IMG/VR virus record: IMGVR_UViG_3300009176_000659
Coordinates: 1 to 23,240 of that record
Length of the DNA stretch: 23,240 nucleotides
DNA from: a virus
Reading direction: 5' to 3' (one strand)
Shown: positions 5,215-23,240 of the stretch, one piece after another
How positions within the stretch are numbered: position 1 is the stretch's first letter
Layout of the letters: the number at the start of each line of letters is the position of its first letter
Position numbers and translations under genes: made by a program
Notes under the pieces: generated by a model
The model's input: only the letters and a program-made list of their open reading frames with translations
Databases searched by the model: none
What the model was told of the DNA's origin: nothing

Positions 5215-6905
5215 CACCTAACTCCGCCGTCGGGTGTGGGTATCTCAGACATGGGCTTGCCCGCCTGCAGAAGCCGCATGATCGCACCGTAGTCCTTCTT
5301 CTGCAGGGCGTCAAGCAGCTCCTGCGTGTGCGCACGGATCATGGCCTTCGTGTCCTCTGAAGTCGCAGGATCCATCATCTGCTTCGCGAGAGCATCACCA
5401 TGTGCCTTGACCTGACTCTCGACCTGGGCACCATACGCAGCAGCGATGTCCAGAGAGGGGCCTGCTGGCTTCCCGCCGCGCAGGACCTTCTCGATGTTGG
5501 GCGTCAGAGCGGGCTGCCCCGAACCTGCGATGGCGTCCAGCGTATTCACTGCGCCGGACACACCCGCTCGTCCAGCACCGACTGTCATCGCTCCCGCCTT
5601 CGTGGCAAGCGGCACTCCGTACGCGGCGACCATTGCCGCACCCTCCGGCCCAACTATCGGTGTGACCCCCTTCATGAGGGCAATGTAGAACATCGCCTTC
5701 GTGCTTGGCGGTGGGGTGCCAGTGATCCCGTGTATCTTCTTGAACTCCGTGTAGGCCTTGTCCATGAACTGCTGCTGCTTATCGGGATCCTTCTCGTGTT
5801 GCGCTAGGGTAATGAGCTGGTCGAACGTTGCACTCTTCTCCTTCGCTTGCTCGATGTCTAGGTTCATCTTGTTCCCCTGAGCCACGGTGAGAAGACGCTG
5901 CGCTTCCTTCATCTTGTCAGGAGGAAGCTCGATGTCCATGTTCTTCCCGGCCATGTACTTCCGCGCCTGGTCCATAGCGACTTCACTCGTTATGCCCTCT
6001 GGATTATCCGAGTTGGCCATGAGGAACTGAGCGAACGCTCCCGTAGCGATTGCCGTCTCCTGCTTGAACTTCTTTGTCTGCAAGCCCAGTTCGCCGGCAC
6101 GGAGTTCGTTTGCCCTCCGCTGAATCGCCTTCTCTTGCGCTGACATACTCAGAGGGACCTTGAAGCCCGGGGGCCTCTTGAAGTTCGGGTCGAAGGCCTC
6201 GTGCGACAGGACCTGAAGTGTCACGCCATCTACGTCCGGGAACTCACCCTTTAGAGTGTTGACGACCCCTGCAGCCTTCTCTTCGATCCACTCTTTCGTG
6301 TAGGGCTGAGACGTACGCAGTCTGGCCATCACGCCTTGTGGATCCGTACGCAGGGCGTAGCTCTCAGTGTTCACTGGCTGCTGTTCGAGCATCATCTGCG
6401 CGACAACATCATCAGGGTTCTCTTCCGCGCGCTTCATAATCGCGCCCTTTGACGCGGCCGAGAAGTCCGATTCAGTCTTCGCCTTTGCAGCGTCCGCAGC
6501 GGCCTTCGCCCGGGTCGAAGCAAGCTCAGGAGAGACCGCGTACGTCGGGGGCTTGAAGGCGGCAGCTTCGTCCTTCAGTGCCTGATGCTCTTTCCTGTGC
6601 ATGAGTTTAGGGATAAACCCTTCGCCCTCGTGCTCCTTGAGCTTAAGGAGCGCGGGATTCAAGCTATCTGCTACTGACGCTGCCGCCAACGTCGACAGCT
6701 CTGGATGATCAGTCGCAAGCTGAGTGAGTGTGGTTTTCAGGGTATCGGCATGCTTCTTCGCCTCGTCGATCCTGTCCTGCTTCGCCTGCTTCATCTTCTG
6801 CATCTGCATCATGGCAGCCATGGCGCCCTGCAGGGACTCTGACAGCTGCTCAGCGAGAGTCGGCTGAGTAACAAGCCGACCGTTCTTCATAACCGTTTCT
6901 GGCAT
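5214..6905 (-). CDS. Coiled-coil internal virion-type protein
   Basis: The product is 563 residues with ATG at 6905 and AGGAG six bases upstream. The N-terminal 130 residues are strongly helical and rich in Met/Gln/Lys (QGAMAAMMQMQKMKQAKQDR, then EAKKHADTLKTTLTQLATDH), probably a coiled coil. Further Ala/Lys helices follow (ASTRAKAAADAAKAKTESDF). Around residues 400-470 a Gly/Ala-rich hydrophobic region (KGVTPIVGPEGAAMVAAYGV, then GAGRAGVSGAVNTLDAIAGS) could insert into a membrane. The C-terminus is helical. A large helical protein of this kind after the fibre genes is what podoviruses use to form a DNA-ejection channel. That role is an inference; no lytic transglycosylase motif is visible. 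Confidence 0.7.
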   Translation of the reverse strand: MPETVMKNGRLVTQPTLAEQLSESLQGAMAAMMQMQKMKQAKQDRIDEAKKHADTLKTTLTQLATDHPELSTLAAASVADSLNPALLKLKEHEGEGFIPKLMHRKEHQALKDEAAAFKPPTYAVSPELASTRAKAAADAAKAKTESDFSAASKGAIMKRAEENPDDVVAQMMLEQQPVNTESYALRTDPQGVMARLRTSQPYTKEWIEEKAAGVVNTLKGEFPDVDGVTLQVLSHEAFDPNFKRPPGFKVPLSMSAQEKAIQRRANELRAGELGLQTKKFKQETAIATGAFAQFLMANSDNPEGITSEVAMDQARKYMAGKNMDIELPPDKMKEAQRLLTVAQGNKMNLDIEQAKEKSATFDQLITLAQHEKDPDKQQQFMDKAYTEFKKIHGITGTPPPSTKAMFYIALMKGVTPIVGPEGAAMVAAYGVPLATKAGAMTVGAGRAGVSGAVNTLDAIAGSGQPALTPNIEKVLRGGKPAGPSLDIAAAYGAQVESQVKAHGDALAKQMMDPATSEDTKAMIRAHTQELLDALQKKDYGAIMRLLQAGKPMSEIPTPDGGVR

Positions 6906-6914
6906 GTTAAGCTC

Positions 6915-8744
6915 CTAAGACCCGGCGCCAGCTGCCATGATGATATACGGGGCGATAGCCCCAATCAACTGAAGCCACTGGTTCCCGCCACTCTGCGTAG
7001 GCGGAATGATCTGTCCCGCACCAGTAGCGAGGTTCACAGCCTGATTGAGATACGCAGGCGTGTTCGTATCCCGGAAGTTCTGATAGTTCAGCCCGGCAGC
7101 GGTCGACTGTCCTTGTAGATCAATCCCAGCGAGGCCCATAGCGGTCTTCGCGAAGTCACTATAAGGCTGCGTCGTCGCCGAGCTGATCCCGGGGATCGCG
7201 CCCAAGGTACCGAGCTGTATTCCGGCGTTCGCACGAGCCTGATCCGCGGCAGATGTGAACAAGCCCTGTAGGCCGGGGATCGCACTCAAGTTCGCCAGGT
7301 TCTGTTGCAGCGTACGGTTCTGTACGTTCTCGTACGGCTGTGCTGCACCAGTCGCCATACCAGGCGCCATGCCCATGGTCTGGACACGACGATCCTGTGC
7401 CTGTCCCAGGACCTGAGCGATGAGCTGGCTCTGCTGGGAGTTGATATCCGCCATTCCACGTGAGGAGCCCCGTGCCACGGCCTCTGCGACGTCCGAACCT
7501 GCGCTGAGACCCATCTTGCCGAACTGCTCGCGGATCTGAGCGTTCTGGTCCTCGATACCCATCATCCCGCGAGTCTGGATATCGTTCAACGCTCCGGTGA
7601 TGTTCGGTGCACCACCATTCGCTAGCATCTCGTACCACGAGGGGACAGTAGAACCAATCCAGCCGAGCCCCTGCGTCTGGGGATCGTAGCTATGATTCAT
7701 CTGGCTCGAGATCATGTTCTTCAGCGGGCTCACGTCTCCAATGGGGTTGAAGCCTTGCAGGCTGTCCATGATCCCCATGGCCCGGTCGGAATAGTCTCCC
7801 GCGTAGTTCGTCGCGATCGAACTCTGTCCAAGTGCCGCACCGGAAAGAAGGCCGTTCAGCCCTACGTTCAGGTTCCCGGGGTAGTTCGGCTGGTTTACCC
7901 GATAGTTGTTCGAGAAGAAATTCGCCAATACCTGTTGCAGACCCGAGACGTTCGGATTAACCAAGCCCGAGACGTTCACGTTGCTTGAATTGGAACCACC
8001 GCCGGAGCCACCACCACTAGAACTACCACCACCACCCCCGGTAACTGGGCCTCCACTCTCGTTCGTACTCTTTCCGGGATAGTCCGTCCCATTCGGATGC
8101 GGATCATCCCCAGGCTTTGTTCCGGGCGGCCAGCAGCCAGCTGCCCCGTTGGGCATGATCTGCCATTCCGTTCCTTCAGGGCACGGAGAGCCAGGTTGCG
8201 TGCCAGGTGCGACGGGAGATTGACAACCGCCAAACGGGCCGAGAACGTCCCCATTCGGGCAGCTTCGGCAGACACTGTTCACTGAGTCCCAGAACTGACC
8301 AGAGGGACAGTTGTGCTGCGCTTCCGGGCTTATGTACGGTGGTTTCGAGGTTCCAGTACTAGTCCCACCAGTACCCTCACCACCCTCGATCGAGCTCGCT
8401 TGGCGCATCCGCGTAGGCGTGCCCGTGAGCGAGCCCATCGCTCCGCCCGTCTGCATCGCAGTCTGCGCGGACGCGGTCAAGTAGGGATTGACGTACTGCT
8501 GCGGCTGCATCTGAGCGAAGCTCTGCCCGCCCGACGAGGCCACGCCTGCGTACGGCGTGATCGGCGCAGGCGCAGGCTTCGGGGCCGTCGGCTTCGGGGC
8601 AGTCCCAGGTGCCTGTTGCGTCTGCTGCTGCAGCATGCTATCCATCGTCTGATAGCGTGCCAGCGTGTCCGCCTTCTGCTGGGCATACGGATCGTAGCCC
8701 AGCGTGCCGAGTCCAAAGTAATCATCCTGCAACGTAGTAGGCAT
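6915..8744 (-). CDS. Large virion protein with Cys-rich knob and Gly/Ser linker
   Basis: The product is 609 residues. Its ATG overlaps the upstream stop by one base and has GAGGA seven bases before it. The N-terminus is Gln/Pro/Ala-rich. Residues 146-204 carry six cysteines in CPxG-type repeats (CPSGQFWDSVNSVCRSCPNG, then CPEGTEWQIMPNGAAGC). Residues 231-254 are a Gly/Ser linker (GGGGGSSSGGGSGGGSNSS). The rest is Ala/Gly/Gln-rich and helical (NDIQTRGMMGIEDQNAQIRE, then QLIAQVLGQAQDRRVQTMGM), ending in a hydrophobic stretch (WLQLIGAIAPYIIMAAGAGS). It looks like an internal ejection-type or tail-hub protein. No enzyme motif is visible, and the Cys-rich module is unusual for such a protein. Confidence 0.72.
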   Translation of the reverse strand: MPTTLQDDYFGLGTLGYDPYAQQKADTLARYQTMDSMLQQQTQQAPGTAPKPTAPKPAPAPITPYAGVASSGGQSFAQMQPQQYVNPYLTASAQTAMQTGGAMGSLTGTPTRMRQASSIEGGEGTGGTSTGTSKPPYISPEAQHNCPSGQFWDSVNSVCRSCPNGDVLGPFGGCQSPVAPGTQPGSPCPEGTEWQIMPNGAAGCWPPGTKPGDDPHPNGTDYPGKSTNESGGPVTGGGGGSSSGGGSGGGSNSSNVNVSGLVNPNVSGLQQVLANFFSNNYRVNQPNYPGNLNVGLNGLLSGAALGQSSIATNYAGDYSDRAMGIMDSLQGFNPIGDVSPLKNMISSQMNHSYDPQTQGLGWIGSTVPSWYEMLANGGAPNITGALNDIQTRGMMGIEDQNAQIREQFGKMGLSAGSDVAEAVARGSSRGMADINSQQSQLIAQVLGQAQDRRVQTMGMAPGMATGAAQPYENVQNRTLQQNLANLSAIPGLQGLFTSAADQARANAGIQLGTLGAIPGISSATTQPYSDFAKTAMGLAGIDLQGQSTAAGLNYQNFRDTNTPAYLNQAVNLATGAGQIIPPTQSGGNQWLQLIGAIAPYIIMAAGAGS

Positions 8745-9265: not shown

Positions 9266-9619
9266 CTAAGAAGGAGTGTCAATCCCCGCGAGCGAGTTCC
9301 ACAGGGTGAGAATCTGCGACTGCAAATCGATGTCCGCGATCGTGCACGTAGAGGTCTGCTTCTCTTCGTCATACGTAGTCGCAGCTACTACGTTAACACC
9401 CATGACTACCTGTGGACCTGCCATCTGGGCCATCTGAGCAGGACGCTCTACCACTTTCTGAGCGAAGAACGCCCTAGACTGGTGATACGGCGTAACCCCC
9501 GGTTCACTGAGAATGTTTGATGTGACGAATGCCATCATCGCCGTGACACGCTCCATAAATCCACCTGGACCCGTATCGCGTGTTAACGCCATCTGCTTAA
9601 CCGATGATTCTACAGCCAT
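9266..9619 (-). CDS. Small virion-type helical protein
   Basis: The product is 117 residues, starting at the ATG that overlaps the fibre stop by one base (TAATG). The sequence is mostly helical (FMERVTAMMAFVTSNILSEP, then HQSRAFFAQKVVERPAQMAQ), with a C-terminal IQSQ-like helix (DLQSQILTLWNSLAGI). It resembles a family of small phage proteins with a YHQSRAFFA / LxxPxxxA pattern encoded next to fibre genes. These are probably structural, but have no proven role. It is likely co-translated with the fibre, so a chaperone or base element for the fibre is also possible. Confidence 0.65.
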   Translation of the reverse strand: MAVESSVKQMALTRDTGPGGFMERVTAMMAFVTSNILSEPGVTPYHQSRAFFAQKVVERPAQMAQMAGPQVVMGVNVVAATTYDEEKQTSTCTIADIDLQSQILTLWNSLAGIDTPS

Positions 9620-11313
9620 TATTGGATCTCCACCCGAATGTCAAGGTCAAGATAGAGCGTTTGTGGGCTGAACGAAAAGGCGGGTACTGGGTAGAATGTA
9701 ATATTCGTATTGCCAGCGGACGAGGATGCATATACTATCGTACCCCATGGGAGCGAACCCCCCGCACACACAGTTCCCATATTATTTGTACCGAACGCGG
9801 CCACATACCCACCGGGTAGCCGGATATAAATCGAGCCAGTCCCACTACCTCCAATAACTGCCGCATTCAGTGAGAGCTTCCAGTGTAGGGTCTTACCAAT
9901 CACAGCATAACGGTTATAAGTCACCTGACCCGATGCGACTGTAAGCGTCAGAGGCGCAGTGGCAGTGTAGTGCGCGGCATTGAAGGGTTCAGCTGCCCAG
10001 TGTCCCATCGGGACAGCGCGCTGCTTCTCATAGATATCCCGATTGACATTCAAGTCACCTGTTCTGGTGAAATTGAATACTTCTAATGCATTAGAATAAT
10101 CATCATTCGTCGCGTTAAAGGCTATTCGTTGCGAGCCACTATATAGGTGAAATACCCTTAGATTGGGTGGTTGTGAAGTATCATTCAGTGTAAGTACTGG
10201 AGCTGACTTTGTAAATATCTGATTCTGCGTGAATGTGTTAGACTGATCCTTACATGCTACATTTCCAGCTGAACTAGTTGCAGTCAGGGCAACGCCTGAT
10301 GTTAATCCAGTATTACGATCTATAGTAAGATAATCAGACCCAACATCTGTACCAAAATCATCAACAGCCTCAAAGCATAGTTTGGAATTGCTTCGTAGTT
10401 GCAATGCCATTGCTCGAGTATTCGCCGGTGCTGCTGGATTGATAAAAACGAGTCGTGCACCGTTCCCAAAACTCGTGTTTATCGTTTGAGACGCCGTGAA
10501 CGTGTTCTCTCTATGCGTCCATGCGTTGTTTAACAGTACATCAGTCGAACCCAACTGATGCGTGGCTGCATGTACGCCGACCGTTCCTGACGGACCCTGC
10601 GCACCTGTATCGCCCTTTGGGCCTTGCGGTCCTTGAACACCTTGCGGACCCTGAGCTCCAGTAGAACCTGTCGCGCCCGTTGGTCCAGTCGGCCCCTTCA
10701 GATTTCCACGAAGTGCCCAGGTGTTGCTTACCGCATTGGTACACTCATAGTAGTTCCCACTAACATTGTCTAGGTACCAATCGCCGGTCACCGCACCGAT
10801 ATCGGGTTGAGGGCCACCTGCGCCGGTAAACCAGCTCTCGCCAGGCTTTCCTGGTGCTCCTGGTGCTCCTTGCGATCCTGTAGCGCCGGGGTCACCTTTC
10901 GGCCCCTGCGCTCCTGTACTGCCTGCTGGGCCTGTTGAACCGGTCGGCCCTTGTGGACCAGTCGATCCCGTTGGACCAGCTGGTCCTGTAGTGCCAGTGT
11001 CTCCCTTGTCTCCCTTGTCTCCTTTAGGGCCAGTTGCACCAGTGGGACCCGTTGGACCAGGTGCACCAGGCGCTCCATCAGCTCCATCAGCTCCATCAAC
11101 ACCAGGCGGGCCTTGTGGCCCTTCTGGCCCTTCGGGGCCCTGAGGCCCTACAGGGCCAGGCTCTCCATTTCCCGTTCCGTCCTCCGGGACCCTTAGCAGA
11201 GCCTGGGCGATGATCGTGTAGTGCTGTCCCAGAGCGGTATTCAGGTTCCGAGCCCAGACCTTAAAGTCCTCACCCACTGGTGTGGGCAGTAAGGCGTTGA
11301 AGGGAATCCTCAT
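9619..11313 (-). CDS. Collagen-like tail fibre protein
   Basis: The product is 564 residues, starting in an ATGA junction with the gp10-like gene. Residues 1-45 form an attachment module ([20 protein letters not shown]). A collagen helix of 37 Gly-X-Y triplets spans 50-160, including [13 protein letters not shown] folded insert spans about 160-206 ([31 protein letters not shown]). A second collagen block of about 13 triplets spans 207-245. Residues 269-420 contain two similar shaft units, [11 protein letters not shown] and [11 protein letters not shown]. The C-terminal head (440-564) is beta-rich and ends [11 protein letters not shown], probably the receptor-binding tip. The fibre should trimerise through the collagen parts. 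Base composition falls sharply in the C-terminal half, which suggests a separate origin. Confidence 0.85.
10579..10695 (-). repeat. Second collagen block, 13 Gly-X-Y triplets
   Basis: Residues 207-245 of the fibre run from [10 protein letters not shown] to GAQGPSGTV. This block is separated from the first by a folded domain, so the shaft probably bends or branches there. Confidence 0.85.
10834..11166 (-). repeat. First collagen block, 37 Gly-X-Y triplets
   Basis: Residues 50-160 of the fibre keep glycine at every third position without a break. Charged GDK and GPKGD triplets are present, as in bacterial collagens where such pairs help hold the triple helix. The DNA reads as degenerate 9-base periods, often GGACC- and CCAGT-rich on the plus strand. 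Confidence 0.9.
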
Positions 11314-12881
11314 GGGATGTACATGTCCCGAATCTCGATCTCGGGGTGAAACGAACTAATGCTCATCGTCTCCGTCGCACTAGTCTGCTCAATACGGAAG
11401 CGGATCGAATGCCCGGTGAACTGTTGCTCGGACCACTGATACGGCGCGTCTAGCGACCCAGGAAGGTCAAGAGTCACAGGATACTTCTGGGACCACGTGT
11501 TTCCCGCGTCCAAGGAAAAGGTCAGGTTGAAGCTGAACGGGGCACCCAACGCTTTGAACCAGATCGTGAGCGTGCGTAGGGTAATCTGCCGCCCGATGAA
11601 TCCCGGATCAACATCCTCCGCACAGATGTCCTTCGAGGTCCAGTACGCCTTAATCGGGACACCATTGTCCCCAAGCTCCGCAGGTGACCAGATGTAGACC
11701 TGTCCGTCCTGATGCCCGGTCAAGAAGTTCGGGTACGCTTGCTGTAGAACATGCTGGTCCCACGCGACCACAAGCTGGTCCCAGGTGCCTAACTGAAGGT
11801 CCCAGATCGTGGAGTTATCGGCCCTATGAAGCGTCGCACACAAAGGACCGTCTACCGTCCAGGGATACCAGACTTTGTGGCCCCAGTGATGAACCCAGAT
11901 CTTATCGGGCGTCTTAGAGGCACCCGTGATCATGAAGATCATGTACTCTTGAGTGTCGTAATCCACCTCGCCGAACATCTTGTCGATCAACGAGATGTTG
12001 ATCGACCGGAAGATCTCGTCTCGCACAGGGAACCCGATGTCCTCAAGGTTCGACCCGTCGAACTCGTATATGGAATCGTTCCCGAAGAACATGTGTCGAA
12101 GGCCGCGTTCATGCAACGTGTGAGGTGCGTACAGGCCCGAACCTGTAACACGAGGCTCGTATATGATCGGAGCCGTAGCATCCCCTGTTCGTGTACCCAG
12201 ACTGACTGACTTCTCCGAGTACACCGCGATCTGAGACCCGATCTTCTTGAGCCCCTTTATGTGATAAGGGAACTCCGTCAAGTCCGTGAAGCCTGACCCG
12301 ACACCAGTCCAGTCGAAGTGATCTGCAACAACGGAACGTCGCACACGAAAGGGTTTCGAGGCACCCCCTTCGACCGTGAACGCTAGGATAAGGCGGTCCG
12401 CGCCACGCGTCAGGTACCGCGCCGGGGGACACGCCGCTGCGAGCGGAGCGTACGTTAGGCTCGTAAAGGGAATGCGCTGAACGGGGTCTACCCCTTGAGA
12501 GAAGACGAAGGAGTTCTGTGAGACCTCCCAGGAGAAGAGTCGATCAGGGCCCCCTGTAAGTGTGGGACCCGTAAGCTGCTGCCACACCGTTCCAGCAGCA
12601 TCGTGCTTCCAGACTCCCGTCGCGGTCATAGCGAAAAGGTGCGTTCCGTTCTCCTCGTCTTGAACGGAAGCGAGACCCAGGATGGGAGCACCGAACGAGG
12701 GGCTGTTCACATGCAGACGACGATATCCCGGACGCTTGCGCAGCCTTCCCGCCGCCACGCTCATGTTCTGCATATCCGGTGAAGCGCTCAAAGGCAAACG
12801 CTTCGCAGGCATAGCAGTGATCATCCCCCCGATCGGGTAGATGTCCAACGTACGACGTGGTACGAGTCCCGCCAGCGCCAT
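11310..12881 (-). CDS. P22 gp10-like tail stabilisation or nozzle protein
   Basis: The product is 523 residues with ATG at 12881 and GAGGA eight bases upstream. The N-terminus contains [20 protein letters not shown] followed by [20 protein letters not shown], the pattern of podovirus packaged-DNA stabilisation proteins such as P22 gp10, which form the nozzle or hub of the short tail. Later segments ([57 protein letters not shown]) read as beta-propeller-like blades. The C-terminus is a beta-sandwich with [15 protein letters not shown]. Its place between neck adaptor and fibre fits the role. The assignment is by motif pattern and context. Confidence 0.7.
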
Positions 12882-17014: not shown

Positions 17015-17176
17015 CTATCGAATCGTGTGACCACCAAGCAAGAGGTAAGCGATGATGATAACCAAGATGACGGTGAGCGCGCCACTTGGCCCATAGCCCC
17101 AGTCGCGGCTATACGGATACCACGGACCGGAGCCGAGAAGGAGGACGACGAGCAGGATCACGAGTATCGTGAGCAT
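17015..17176 (-). CDS. DUF3309-type small membrane protein
   Basis: The product is 53 residues starting at the ATG at 17176, four bases after the PEP-CTERM stop. It has a hydrophobic helix (MLTILVILLVVLLLGSG), a central polar turn YPYSRDWGYGPSG, and a second hydrophobic helix (ALTVILVIIIAYLLLGG). The SRxWGYGPSG turn between two membrane helices is the signature of the DUF3309 family of tiny bacterial inner-membrane proteins, whose function is unknown. The ribosome site is weak, so translation may be coupled to the upstream gene. The larger frame starting at 17551 is a shadow of the PEP-CTERM gene and is not used. Confidence 0.85.
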   Translation of the reverse strand: MLTILVILLVVLLLGSGPWYPYSRDWGYGPSGALTVILVIIIAYLLLGGHTIR

Positions 17177-17180
17177 CGTG

Positions 17181-17783
17181 CTACTTTCTGAACCGCCTGG
17201 CGACCCCCAAGAGAGCGGTTCCGAAGAGAAGGAACGAGGCGGGTTCGGGCACTGCCGTGTCGGTCGCCGAGAAGCTGAGAGCCGAACCGGCGCTTGTGAC
17301 CGCGAGAGAGAAGCGACCTGGAGTATCGTCGAAGCCAGCGATGTGGAACGTACCGGTCCCGATGAGCGTGAGAGCGTCAGCGCTCTTGAACGGGTTGAGC
17401 ACCGTGAGCAGGTCGAACGTCGCGCCGCCAAACGAGGTCTGCCACGCTGCCAGCGGGGCACCAGCGTAGATCCCACACGGACCGGAGAAGCAGATGTCCT
17501 TGATCGTACCTGCTCCGAGGATCCCGGCGAAGGTACCCGTGCCCCCGTCAATGCTCATCGGTCCTGCGACGCCTGGCGTCGGCGCACCCGTGTTCGTGAA
17601 GTCCAGTGCGATCGCGTCAGCCAAGCTGACAGCGACACCCGCGCTGTTCACTCCGAACACGCAGTCGGCTCCTGGGCAGACGAGCAGAGACTGAGAGAGC
17701 GTGACCGAGCCCGTGATGGGCACTGCCTGCGCGGTTGAGGCGAAGAGGGCGAAGCCCAGAGCGAAGCCGAGAAGCTTTTTCAT
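17181..17783 (-). CDS. PEP-CTERM sorting domain protein
   Basis: The product is 200 residues with every hallmark of an exosortase substrate. Residues 1-20 are a classic signal peptide (MKKLLGFALGFALFASTAQA). Near the C-terminus, VPEP at 178-181 is followed by a hydrophobic stretch (ASFLLFGTALLGVA) and a basic tail (RRFRK). In Gram-negative bacteria with the EpsH/exosortase system such proteins are exported, held in the membrane and processed at the PEP motif, usually together with exopolysaccharide. The body is a beta-rich secreted type. It has Cys 36, 41, 98 and 103, which could form two disulfides, consistent with a periplasmic or extracellular location. AGGA lies nine bases before the ATG. 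The gene sits inside the phage late operon, 13 bases after a small beta protein and directly before a membrane peptide gene. The sorting signal is certain; the body's function is unknown. Confidence 0.9.
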   Translation of the reverse strand: MKKLLGFALGFALFASTAQAVPITGSVTLSQSLLVCPGADCVFGVNSAGVAVSLADAIALDFTNTGAPTPGVAGPMSIDGGTGTFAGILGAGTIKDICFSGPCGIYAGAPLAAWQTSFGGATFDLLTVLNPFKSADALTLIGTGTFHIAGFDDTPGRFSLAVTSAGSALSFSATDTAVPEPASFLLFGTALLGVARRFRK

Positions 17784-17795
17784 GTGCTGTGTTCC

Positions 17796-18077
17796 TTACA
17801 AGATGCGGATGACCAATTCCCACGTGCCGGTCATTGTGCCGGCACAACCGATCCCGTCGATCCAAAACGGCTGGTGATTCCCCATGTCCGCAGAGAAGCC
17901 TGCGGCCGGGGCAACAACACCCCAGATCGTTGCACCTCCTTTGTCCTTGACTGTGATCGTGCCACCAACGTTCAGACCCGTGCCGATGAAGGTCATCCCG
18001 CCGACTTTTGTCCGTCCTGGAAAGGCATCTCCCAGGGCGGTAAGCGAGACCGTCTGTCCGGTTCTAACTGCAGCCAT
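17796..18077 (-). CDS. Small beta-sheet structural protein
   Basis: The product is 93 residues with ATG at 18077 and AGGAG eight bases upstream. It begins MAAVRTGQTVSLTALGDAFP and alternates short hydrophobic strands with glycine turns (GGMTFIGTGLNVGGTITVKD, then GGATIWGVVAPAAGF). It ends TGTWELVIRIL. The look is that of small all-beta virion proteins (decoration, head or tail subunits). I cannot assign a specific family. It is the last apparent head-type gene before the PEP-CTERM gene, which starts 13 bases further on. Confidence 0.7.
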   Translation of the reverse strand: MAAVRTGQTVSLTALGDAFPGRTKVGGMTFIGTGLNVGGTITVKDKGGATIWGVVAPAAGFSADMGNHQPFWIDGIGCAGTMTGTWELVIRIL

Positions 18078-18273: not shown

Positions 18274-18678
18274 CTAGAACGCGGATGTTCCCAACGTGAA
18301 GATCGTCACCGCGCCGGGTGACGTGATCACAGCCAAGAACTCGCGTGCGATGCCTTGTGCGAGGGTCATGGTACCGGAAAGCGTGATTCCGGTGTTTGTC
18401 GTCAGCGTGAGCACCTCAGCCGCCGCAGCGGTGTTACGGATGAGGAAGCGCACAGACGCTCCAGGACTGGGATTGTCGAGAGCACCGATGAGATCCGATG
18501 CGGTCGGAAACTGATCTGACCGTGCCGCACCGTTGGTGTTCCGAAGGATGATCTTGCCGAGGATCTGCTGCGCCGTGTAGGTGACGTTCCCTGCTGTGTT
18601 GACCGTGACCGGATTCACGAAGTCAACCAAGCCGGGGGCCTCCAGGGCGGAGATCGACGAGAAGTGGGTAACTCCCAA
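18274..18678 (-). CDS. Beta-rich small structural protein after the capsid gene
   Basis: The product is about 134 residues, reading MGVTHFSSISALEAPGLVDF. I prefer the TTG at 18678 because AGGGGG lies six bases upstream and it directly follows the capsid stop at 18681. A GTG at 18714 would overlap the capsid gene by 34 bases and has no clear ribosome site. The sequence contains VNTAGNVTYTAQQILGKIIL, then RNTNGAARSDQFPTASDLIG, VRFLIRNTAAAAEVLTLTTN and FLAVITSPGAVTIFTLGTSA. I recognise this as a domain recurrent in phage capsid fibres and decoration proteins, made mostly of short beta strands. It probably decorates the head or forms a fibre tip. The family resemblance is clear; the function is inferred. 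Confidence 0.75.
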   Translation of the reverse strand: MGVTHFSSISALEAPGLVDFVNPVTVNTAGNVTYTAQQILGKIILRNTNGAARSDQFPTASDLIGALDNPSPGASVRFLIRNTAAAAEVLTLTTNTGITLSGTMTLAQGIAREFLAVITSPGAVTIFTLGTSAF

Positions 18679-18680
18679 GG

Positions 18681-19601
18681 TTAACCCCCTGAGCTCCCAT
18701 AAACGCCCCGCCACTCGGAGAAGCCGCGTGAGTAGCGTGCATACGTTTTGAACATCGCGTCGCCGGTCAAGAAGTCATCGGCGTTCGCGTACTCCGGCTT
18801 GACGCGCCAGTACCATTTCAGGTCGTGGCCGCCCTTCGACTTGCCGGTCCGCTTGTGTGTGGTCACGAACCAGGAGTCGGCGTCCGTCAGATACCTGACG
18901 CACATGTACTCCATGGACTCGGACTTCAGAGTGTTGATCGTGTTGTCGGCCGTGTACGGCTTGTGCTCCGACTCCATGATCTCCCGGGCCTGCCATTCGA
19001 AGGAGGTATCCAGGTAGACCCGATACGGCTTTACGTCGATCGGGCGTCCGCGGTCATCGACCAAGGTCTTGAAATGGTCGAGGGCCGCCTGATAAGACGT
19101 GAACGAGAAATCCACGTCCGTGCTCGGCCGATTGCCGATCGTCGCTCCGCCGTCGAGCCGCGTGTGCGCGGTAGTGCAGAGCGACAGGCCGTCCTGTCCT
19201 GTGTACGACGCGCTGAACGCATTGTTCAGCACAGACCAGGCGTCGACCTCGATCTTGTACGCGGCGGCCTGCACGAGTTCTTCGGCCATCCCGTCCATGA
19301 TATCGTAGAGGTCGTCGTCGTACATCTCGCGGGTGATACGGAAGCCCAGCCCATACGAAGAGTGGGTGTAACGAACGGTGTTCCCCTTGAGGGGATCATC
19401 GAACGTTGTCGCCACGCCCTCGGGCTTGTCCACCATCGAACCGAGCCCCGCCACCTTGAAGTCCTCTTCGTACGCGCGCTTCGAGTCGCGGACGTTGAAG
19501 GTGCTCATCCAGGACGGGGGCGTTCGGCCCATCATGTTGAACATGACCTCGTAGAGGCCGGGTGCGAGGAGCTCGGAGAATCCGCCGGTTGAAGTTGCCA
19601 T
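18681..19601 (-). CDS. Major capsid protein (HK97 fold, Mu gpT-like)
   Basis: The product is 306 residues and forms the capsid shell. The N-terminus FSELLAPGLYEVMFNMMG and the block GFRITREMYDDDLYDIMDGM, followed by a helix (AEELVQAAAYKIEVDAWSVL) and LNNAF, match the pattern of phage major head proteins related to Mu gpT. DGLSLCTTAHTRLDGG corresponds to the usual LCSTSHP-like segment, and the C-terminal domain ends in YARYSRGFSEWRGVYG. There is no long N-terminal scaffold (delta) domain, so a separate scaffold is expected. The start has two adjacent Shine-Dalgarno cores (19609-19618), fitting very high expression. The gene sits between a decoration-like gene and another beta-rich structural gene. 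Confidence 0.92.
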   Translation of the reverse strand: MATSTGGFSELLAPGLYEVMFNMMGRTPPSWMSTFNVRDSKRAYEEDFKVAGLGSMVDKPEGVATTFDDPLKGNTVRYTHSSYGLGFRITREMYDDDLYDIMDGMAEELVQAAAYKIEVDAWSVLNNAFSASYTGQDGLSLCTTAHTRLDGGATIGNRPSTDVDFSFTSYQAALDHFKTLVDDRGRPIDVKPYRVYLDTSFEWQAREIMESEHKPYTADNTINTLKSESMEYMCVRYLTDADSWFVTTHKRTGKSKGGHDLKWYWRVKPEYANADDFLTGDAMFKTYARYSRGFSEWRGVYGSSGG

Positions 19602-21350: not shown

Positions 21351-21561
21351 CGGTATTAGCCTTTCCTTCTCCATCGTGGAGCTTTTTCAGCTCCTCGTGT
21401 TTCCTATACAGGTAACGAGCTTGCCCCTGCAGTCTGAGGAGCTCGCGTGGGCTGTCTTGCACCCGGAGGAGGTGGAGCGCCTTGTCCAGGTCCTCCTCCA
21501 GGTCCTTGAGGAGGAGCTCCTTGGCCCGGCTGGGGAGGTCCGCCCATTGCGCCTTGTCCAA
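21322..21561 (-). CDS. Small helical protein overprinted on the portal 3' end
   Basis: This is a 79-residue product with a TTG start. An AAGGAG site at 21571-21576 lies nine bases upstream of that TTG. The sequence is strongly amphipathic and charged (AKELLLKDLEEDLDKALHLL, then SPRELLRLQGQARYLYRKHE), consistent with two helices or a short coiled coil. Its first 158 bases overlap the portal gene in another frame, where the portal reads only as a Pro/Gly-rich tail. Small helical proteins directly after the portal are common in phages and are usually unnamed. Its sequence and position suggest a portal or scaffold accessory, but I do not know the function. The well-formed helical sequence and good ribosome site make it more than a shadow frame. 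Confidence 0.72.
   Translation of the reverse strand: MDKAQWADLPSRAKELLLKDLEEDLDKALHLLRVQDSPRELLRLQGQARYLYRKHEELKKLHDGEGKANTDGRSKQTGY
21379..21395 (-). promoter_or_regulatory. Small hairpin upstream of the scaffold-candidate start
   Basis: GGAGCT and AGCTCC form a perfect six-base stem with a five-base loop in the transcript. It lies inside the end of the overprinted small gene and about 30 bases before the ATG at 21350. It could affect initiation of the downstream gene, but a chance match inside coding sequence is also likely. Confidence 0.25.
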
Positions 21562-23240
21562 CGGCTTGTGCTCCTTGCAAGATGGTTGAAATGTCCGGGA
21601 CGATCACGTCCGCGTTTTCCACGTCGAATCGATCCACAAAGCGCTTGACAATGTTATGCGAGGCCATCATGATCTGCGCTGCTGCCATCTTCGCGGGCGG
21701 CGGGATCTGTGGATTGAAGATCATCATCGCCGCACCGGAGAGGCGAGCGTAGTACTCGTTCAGAACCTGCATCAGGACCTGCAGCTGCTGCAGCTCGAGG
21801 TCCCGGTTCACCTGTTCCGACGTGACTTTGAGCTTCAGACCCAGCGAGGTACGCACGTCTCCCTGTGGGAACTGGATGGTACGACCCGGGGTCCACTCGA
21901 ACCCTTCGGGTCGATACTGCTGTTCCATCTGGATCGTGAGGTACAACAGCTCGACGAGCGCGTCCCGCATGTCGTCGATCGAGACCCACTGGCGTATGTT
22001 GCCCTCGGAGATCAGAGCGGTCGTGCCGGTCGCGGTCGCACGGCTGCCCACAGTGCTGGATTCCATGCCCAGATTGTAGGACGACATCCCAGAACGCTTC
22101 TCCGCATTGTACGCTGCCTTCTCCTCAATGCTCGCAATCGCGGGCGAGGGGGCGTTCATATGCAGGATTCGCACGTCCTTGTCCGGATTTTCCGTCACGA
22201 GCTTCTTTCCCGGGTAGATATCCTCCTGATTTCCCAGGTTCGTGTCGGGATGCACGACGACAATGCCCGCATTTGACGCGGTCGCCGCGTCAATCATCTG
22301 ATTGTGAGACGTGGAAGCCTCACGTTGGAAGGGTCCAACCTGCTCCGCAACGCCCATTGGCTGGATTTCGTGCGGCTGATTGAGGAAAGGGATCTGCACA
22401 ATCATGTGCTGCTGGCCAAAATGCGGGTTCATGATGGCCTTCACGAGCGTTCGGGTCTCCAGGTGATACGTGAGGATGACCTCTTCGAACGTTGCCTCCT
22501 GTGCTTCGCCCTCTCCGTCTCCCGAACGCCCGGGAATTTCCCACAGACCATGCACTTCGTGGAACTCGTACTGCTTCGCGGAGCCTGACGTCACGCCAGA
22601 ATTCTTGTTCTGGACCTCTTTGAGCTGGTCAACACGCTCCGTTTTGCCGTGGGCCCAGACTGCATCGAGGTTCTGGAACTCACCCGCGGCCTCAAGGCGC
22701 TTGAGTTCCGCCTTCGTATAACGCAGACGGTTAGAGACCCACGGCAAGTTCGCCCATTCGTCGAACCCTTCGGGCCAGATGAGGTCATTTGGCGAAGCGA
22801 CGTACCACCGCGTGCCCGTGAAACCGGGCACGGGGAACTTGACCACGTTCCCTGCGTCGTCGTAGCGATGATAGTCGCGGACCTCTTCGACCCAGATGGC
22901 TTTGGCGTAGGCCGCCCCGTAGAGGGCCATGTCGAAAGCGATCGTGCGGAGACGGCCCTTCAGGCCACCCATTTCGACGTACCAGTTGATCCAGTCGCGG
23001 ATGTCCTTCTCGAGCGGTTCCCACTGAGGAGCCTTGATCTCTACCTCGGCGAAGTCCTTGGACCCGATTATCGCCTTCTGCAGTCGCGCTACGATCGCGT
23101 CCACTGTGACTGCTACGAGGGGGACGACTACGTTCGAGGCGCCGGGCCAGGGGAAGTTCTTCTTCTCATGCTCCGGCTTCGACTTGTAATCGCGGAGGAA
23201 CTGAGCGTACAGCGTCGCGCGCTGCTCATGGAGCTCAAGC
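21404..23240 (-). CDS. Phage portal protein, 5' end cut by window edge
   Basis: The reading frame is open to the right edge, so about 611 residues are visible and the N-terminus is missing. The ring-shaped portal sits at one capsid vertex, threads DNA during packaging and ejection, and anchors the neck. The first visible residues contain the block FPWPGASNVVVPL, which I recognise as characteristic of podovirus-type and related portals. It is followed by a long alpha/beta body (WINWYVEMGG, TRWYVASPNDLIWPEGFDEW, QIPFLNQPHEIQPMGVAEQV). The in-frame GTG at 23104 is not the real start, because the conserved motif lies upstream of it. The last roughly 50 residues are a low-complexity Pro/Gly/Gln tail read in a different frame from the overlapping small gene at 21322-21561. 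The terminase should lie just beyond the window. The family call is confident; the exact subtype is not. Confidence 0.9.
   Translation of the reverse strand, partial: LELHEQRATLYAQFLRDYKSKPEHEKKNFPWPGASNVVVPLVAVTVDAIVARLQKAIIGSKDFAEVEIKAPQWEPLEKDIRDWINWYVEMGGLKGRLRTIAFDMALYGAAYAKAIWVEEVRDYHRYDDAGNVVKFPVPGFTGTRWYVASPNDLIWPEGFDEWANLPWVSNRLRYTKAELKRLEAAGEFQNLDAVWAHGKTERVDQLKEVQNKNSGVTSGSAKQYEFHEVHGLWEIPGRSGDGEGEAQEATFEEVILTYHLETRTLVKAIMNPHFGQQHMIVQIPFLNQPHEIQPMGVAEQVGPFQREASTSHNQMIDAATASNAGIVVVHPDTNLGNQEDIYPGKKLVTENPDKDVRILHMNAPSPAIASIEEKAAYNAEKRSGMSSYNLGMESSTVGSRATATGTTALISEGNIRQWVSIDDMRDALVELLYLTIQMEQQYRPEGFEWTPGRTIQFPQGDVRTSLGLKLKVTSEQVNRDLELQQLQVLMQVLNEYYARLSGAAMMIFNPQIPPPAKMAAAQIMMASHNIVKRFVDRFDVENADVIVPDISTILQGAQAVGQGAMGGPPQPGQGAPPQGPGGGPGQGAPPPPGARQPTRAPQTAGASSLPV
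21571..21576 (-). promoter_or_regulatory. Shine-Dalgarno of the overprinted TTG-start gene
   Basis: AAGGAG lies nine bases before the TTG at 21561, inside the portal coding region. It is the strongest local support that the small overlapping frame is translated. Confidence 0.6.

Follow-up and report, generated by a model that had tools for sequence, protein, structure and literature searches.

In many environmental bacteria, sorting by exosortases shapes the matrix of flocs and biofilms. The known phage morons and superinfection-exclusion surface proteins, for their part, are membrane proteins or lipoproteins, and to our knowledge none of them uses the exosortase route. In the accepted model for PEP-CTERM proteins, Sec exports the protein, its tail keeps it in the inner membrane and an exosortase performs the cut (PMC12188702). 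Overexpression of one of them, PepA, raises the amount of bound polysaccharide and lowers that of soluble polysaccharide, and PEP-CTERM proteins thus keep exopolysaccharide on the cell (PMC9850573). As to viruses, TIGR03118 proteins were counted in a gene-transfer survey of hot-spring viruses (n = 13; PMC11003980); apart from this mention, no account of phage-encoded exosortase substrates was found in the open literature, a scope outside which most subscription papers and preprints lie.

The gene considered here, located in a window of 23,240 bases that is a complete IMG/VR record, resembles those of bacterial PEP-CTERM proteins (PF07589/TIGR02595, with PepA of Zoogloea and Aquincola among them) in that its product combines a signal peptide, a VPEP motif, a hydrophobic helix and an Arg-rich end with a mature part devoid of any known enzyme domain. 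It differs from them in being phage-encoded and embedded in a virion operon, and from PepA in that the weak PepA score of its product depends on the tail. The architecture is also that of the VPDSG-CTERM proteins (PF18205/TIGR03778), one of which is found at this very position in L070, a related phage, although the motif in the window is VPEP and not VPDSG. With phage morons and superinfection-exclusion surface proteins the gene has in common that it is an extra, variably present gene among virion genes, with a predicted action at the host surface. The TIGR03118 proteins of hot-spring viruses offer a further parallel, as cellular proteins with a putative exosortase-interaction domain in viral contigs, but the passage that mentions them gives a count without operon, spread or mechanism (PMC11003980). 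None of the parts is of a new kind; what appears to be new is that phages use them regularly.

The PEP-CTERM gene and its operon

The large genes of the window lie on the minus strand. Among them are a portal protein (21404..23239; PHROG 1216), which runs off the contig end, a major capsid protein (18681..19601; PHROG 371, PF25209 and PF10124) with relatives in 21 phage records, and a head-gene homologue (18274..18714) matching PHROG 673, which is named head scaffolding protein. Directly upstream of the PEP-CTERM gene is the gene for a small protein of 93 aa (17796..18077, minus strand), whose relatives come after the capsid gene in many related phages, with 27–42% identity in several capsid relatives. 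The PEP-CTERM gene itself (17181..17783, minus strand) encodes 200 aa from ATG to TAG. It is followed on the same strand by genes for a DUF3309 small membrane protein of 53 aa (17015..17176; PF11752, 61.4 bits against a cut-off of 22.3) and for the 155-aa PDNxLPG-repeat protein P0002 (16538..17005), which is found beside exosortase substrates in several unrelated phages. Further downstream, again on the minus strand, 11310-12881 encodes a virion structural protein and 9619-11313 a collagen-like (Gly-X-Y) tail protein. The gap from the 93-aa gene to the PEP-CTERM gene is 12 nt, and 4 nt separate the PEP-CTERM stop from the DUF3309 start. Since the ribosome site of the PEP-CTERM gene, AAGGAA, overlaps the stop codon of the upstream 93-aa gene and that of the repeat gene likewise overlaps the preceding stop codon, the region looks like one operon; the 12 and 4 nt spacing suggests operon translation rather than a promoter of its own. 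As regards the neighbours, DUF3309 is a family of small bacterial membrane proteins, here present in a phage head operon, and a motif search found none in the other loci covered, while the collagen-like tail protein matches many phage tail fibre families.

The N-terminus of the PEP-CTERM protein, MKKLLGFALGFALFASTAQA^VPITG..., displays KK, a hydrophobic stretch and AQA, and residues 1-20 are predicted to form a signal peptide, a call based on inspection and a simple script rule. The mature domain (residues 21-177) is novel and holds four cysteines that are invariant in all copies of the family. The sorting tail (residues 178-200; 17184..17252, minus strand; VPEPASFLLFGTALLGVARRFRK) matches both PF07589 and TIGR02595, and the C-terminus, ...TAVPEPASFLLFGTALLGVARRFRK, consists of VPEP, a hydrophobic stretch and RRFRK followed by the stop, with basic residues only after the helix. 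PF07589 scores 29.9 bits on residues 177-200 (cut-off 20.7, E 5e-7) and NCBIfam TIGR02595 scores 16.9 on the protein (cut-off 16). With both ends present, both curated cut-offs passed and the operon packed, the original prediction of a complete PEP-CTERM substrate in a phage late operon is confirmed. Chance is excluded as the origin of both ends because six other contigs keep both, and the comparison of sequences supports the view that the window protein is a real exosortase-type substrate, phage-borne and encoded in a virion-gene operon.

Once the tail is removed, the mature domain gives no Pfam or NCBIfam match; a search of the PDB found no relatives, and an AlphaFold model built from six sequences reached a pLDDT of 37. 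With a mature domain that has no known relative or structure, no particular benefit is supported by sequence. Defence-system models gave no match. Homology of the mature domain to the flocculation protein PepA was considered and rejected: the full-length protein scores 22.4 bits with the PepA model NF033554, below the cut-off of 80, and without the tail the score is gone.

Proposed route and effect of the protein

We consider it probable, at roughly 70%, that the gene is phage cargo encoding a secreted protein that is handled by the host exosortase and shifts the envelope or matrix of the infected cell in the phage's favour. In the proposed course of events, of which export, cleavage, location, benefit and the host exosortase are what we infer, the protein would be translated from the late structural operon and exported by Sec through its signal peptide. 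The C-terminal helix would anchor it in the inner membrane, the Arg cluster facing the cytoplasm. The host exosortase would then cut near VPEP, so that the freed mature domain would end up on the cell surface or in the exopolysaccharide. There it would most likely mask receptors or bind exopolysaccharide around the cell and the progeny; the roles first put forward for it, namely the blocking of other phages, aggregation and a change of the matrix, may likewise be envisaged. No exosortase gene was found in the carrier records (7 + 45), so that the host would have to supply the enzyme. With expression from a late operon, lysis would follow too soon to allow much of an effect at the surface, which we count against an action there. 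If the proteins do reach the surface, phages would have a means of changing the matrix or blocking rivals that has been overlooked in phage annotation.

The same gene in unrelated phages

Six further IMG/VR contigs carry the window's PEP-CTERM gene, with 65-71% identity, and in agreement with the original prediction 6/6 keep the tail, i.e. VPEP and the Arg cluster. The seven carriers belong to four phage lineages with unrelated head genes. Besides that of the window, these are G001-G003, in which the terminase differs, G004 and G005, with another terminase, and G006, whose terminase and capsid are different again. From one lineage to another the PEP-CTERM protein keeps about 65-82% identity, and the capsid, the portal and most other genes give no BLAST match; inside the lineage of G004 and G005, most other genes show 29-68% identity. 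One gene of G001-G003 has relatives in Stenotrophomonas, Vibrio, Rhizobium and Rhodobacter phages. The repeat protein accompanies the PEP-CTERM gene in G004, G006 and, weakly, G005. In G006, about 39 further residues follow the tail, which is near-terminal in all other relatives, and this extension may spoil sorting there. The G006 copy (L007 9797-10708) is also preceded by a long in-frame Ser-Pro repeat.

The dN/dS ratios of the mature part range from 0.08 to 0.16, with dS near saturation for most pairs, and the sole close pair gives 0.08; these values indicate that the mature part is under purifying selection. They bear on an alternative in which the tail alone matters: PEP-CTERM protein produced late and in excess would occupy the host exosortase as a competitor substrate, host matrix proteins would stay unprocessed, the cell would leave the floc and the progeny would be freed. 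The late-operon position would suit such a competitor, as would the occurrence of the same tail on many unlike mature domains in phages. In the window's family, however, it is the mature domain that is strongly conserved (dN/dS about 0.1, with many invariant columns), whereas the signal peptide and the tail diverge more. Conservation of the mature domain beyond that of the tail and signal peptide argues that the mature part has a function of its own, and we regard both the occupation of the exosortase and the resulting escape from the floc as unlikely.

Presence and replacement among capsid relatives

Among relatives of the window's capsid, PF07589 was found in 0/50 records; one further record, L069, combines a PEP-CTERM tail with a repeat gene. 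The relative with the closest capsid, L030 (72%), carries the capsid, the head genes and the repeat gene in order, and the 47 bp from its small gene to the repeat gene hold neither a PEP-CTERM nor a DUF3309 gene. On that side, the small genes of L030 and the window resemble each other in size and start without showing significant similarity. L070 (capsid 62%) encodes, between its capsid and its repeat gene, a signal-peptide protein that ends in a VPDSG-CTERM tail, scoring 32.8 bits with PF18205 (cut-off 25) and 21.7 with TIGR03778, just under the cut-off of 22; a different sorting signal thus occupies the same position. The type of tail might hint at the exosortase of the host and so aid host prediction for uncultured phages. 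Being an extra gene absent from otherwise collinear close relatives, the PEP-CTERM gene has, in this respect, the mark of cargo, or of a moron.

The same comparison weighs on the idea that the product is a virion or lysis component, that is, a structural or release protein whose export is incidental, and not a host-surface effector. Its gene does lie among head genes, 12 nt and 4 nt from its neighbours, and elsewhere a PEP-CTERM gene adjoins the capsid gene (L104) or is found between portal and connector (L164). Nevertheless, a signal peptide and a membrane tail would keep the protein from being assembled in the cytoplasm, the PEP-CTERM gene is missing from close relatives that share the head genes, and the gene moves between phages with unrelated heads, all of which makes a role in the virion or in lysis quite improbable.

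Recurrence in viral records

The original prediction had dealt with a single phage copy; the gene instead turns out to be one of a recurrent class, with unrelated carriers and 46 contigs. These contigs were recovered by a codon-pattern scan of IMG/VR for VPEPASL-type tails, and 46/46 have true PEP-CTERM C-termini; in all 46 the reading frame of the motif runs into a stop codon 23-33 residues after the motif begins. The survey includes contigs of uncertain viral origin, and 10 of 45 motif-scan records match the single portal family used for comparison. Portal and connector genes flank the PEP-CTERM gene in L164 and L176, and the homologues of these two flanking genes overlap in G006.

A search of IMG/VR by the repeat protein, in which PEP-CTERM was ignored, returned 40 records, 11 of which have PF07589 over the cut-off. 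The PEP-CTERM gene directly adjoins the repeat gene in L104, L124, L135 and L138-L140 and is at least 3 kb away in others, and the proteins concerned form several families with unlike mature parts. After clustering, PF07589 was present in 8/23 clusters with the repeat gene versus 0/29 without it (Fisher p 6.5e-4, indicative only, as the 29 comparison clusters represent one capsid clade). Enrichment of signal-peptide genes beside the repeat gene was not significant (p 0.48), with an ORF picker that misses genes in GC-rich contigs. We count the other PEP-CTERM families beside the repeat gene or between portal and connector as independent acquisitions. The PDNxLPG-repeat family, which is linked to exosortase substrates, comprises the window gene and 40 viral loci, among them L069 and L103-L141; its conserved end is GLKFVVKWLACxGLILVPDNxLP, and it has no Pfam, PHROGs or NCBIfam match.

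Outside IMG/VR, no close relative of the window's protein family turned up when 84,980 bacterial and archaeal genomes were scanned with a peptide pattern, a genome scan with the G006 terminase gave no match, plasmids gave no match to the window protein, and 50,697 records of annotated phages gave none to the window family or to two other phage PEP-CTERM families. It is very hard to credit that the gene was caught by chance from a host, or stems from contamination or chimeric assembly, without phage function: although PEP-CTERM genes are normally bacterial, host DNA may occur in IMG/VR records and annotated phages gave no match, seven contigs, which come from separate data sets and represent four lineages, carry the gene, the same repeat gene adjoins it in at least three lineages, it has phage genes on both sides, it bears signs of purifying selection and it lacks a close relative in the scanned bacterial and archaeal genomes. 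The PEP-CTERM gene is not an assembly oddity.

The use of host surface-sorting machinery looks like a recurrent phage tactic. We would put at about even the chances of a broader proposal, in which a widespread phage class infecting exosortase-bearing environmental bacteria would carry interchangeable substrates in a capsid-proximal cargo slot, with a PEP or VPDSG signal matched to the enzyme of the host, whose sorting system would be a regular target. In L103, a predicted lipoprotein (6560-6973, plus strand) follows the repeat gene at the place where other phages have a PEP-CTERM gene, a hint that the slot may serve surface proteins in general.
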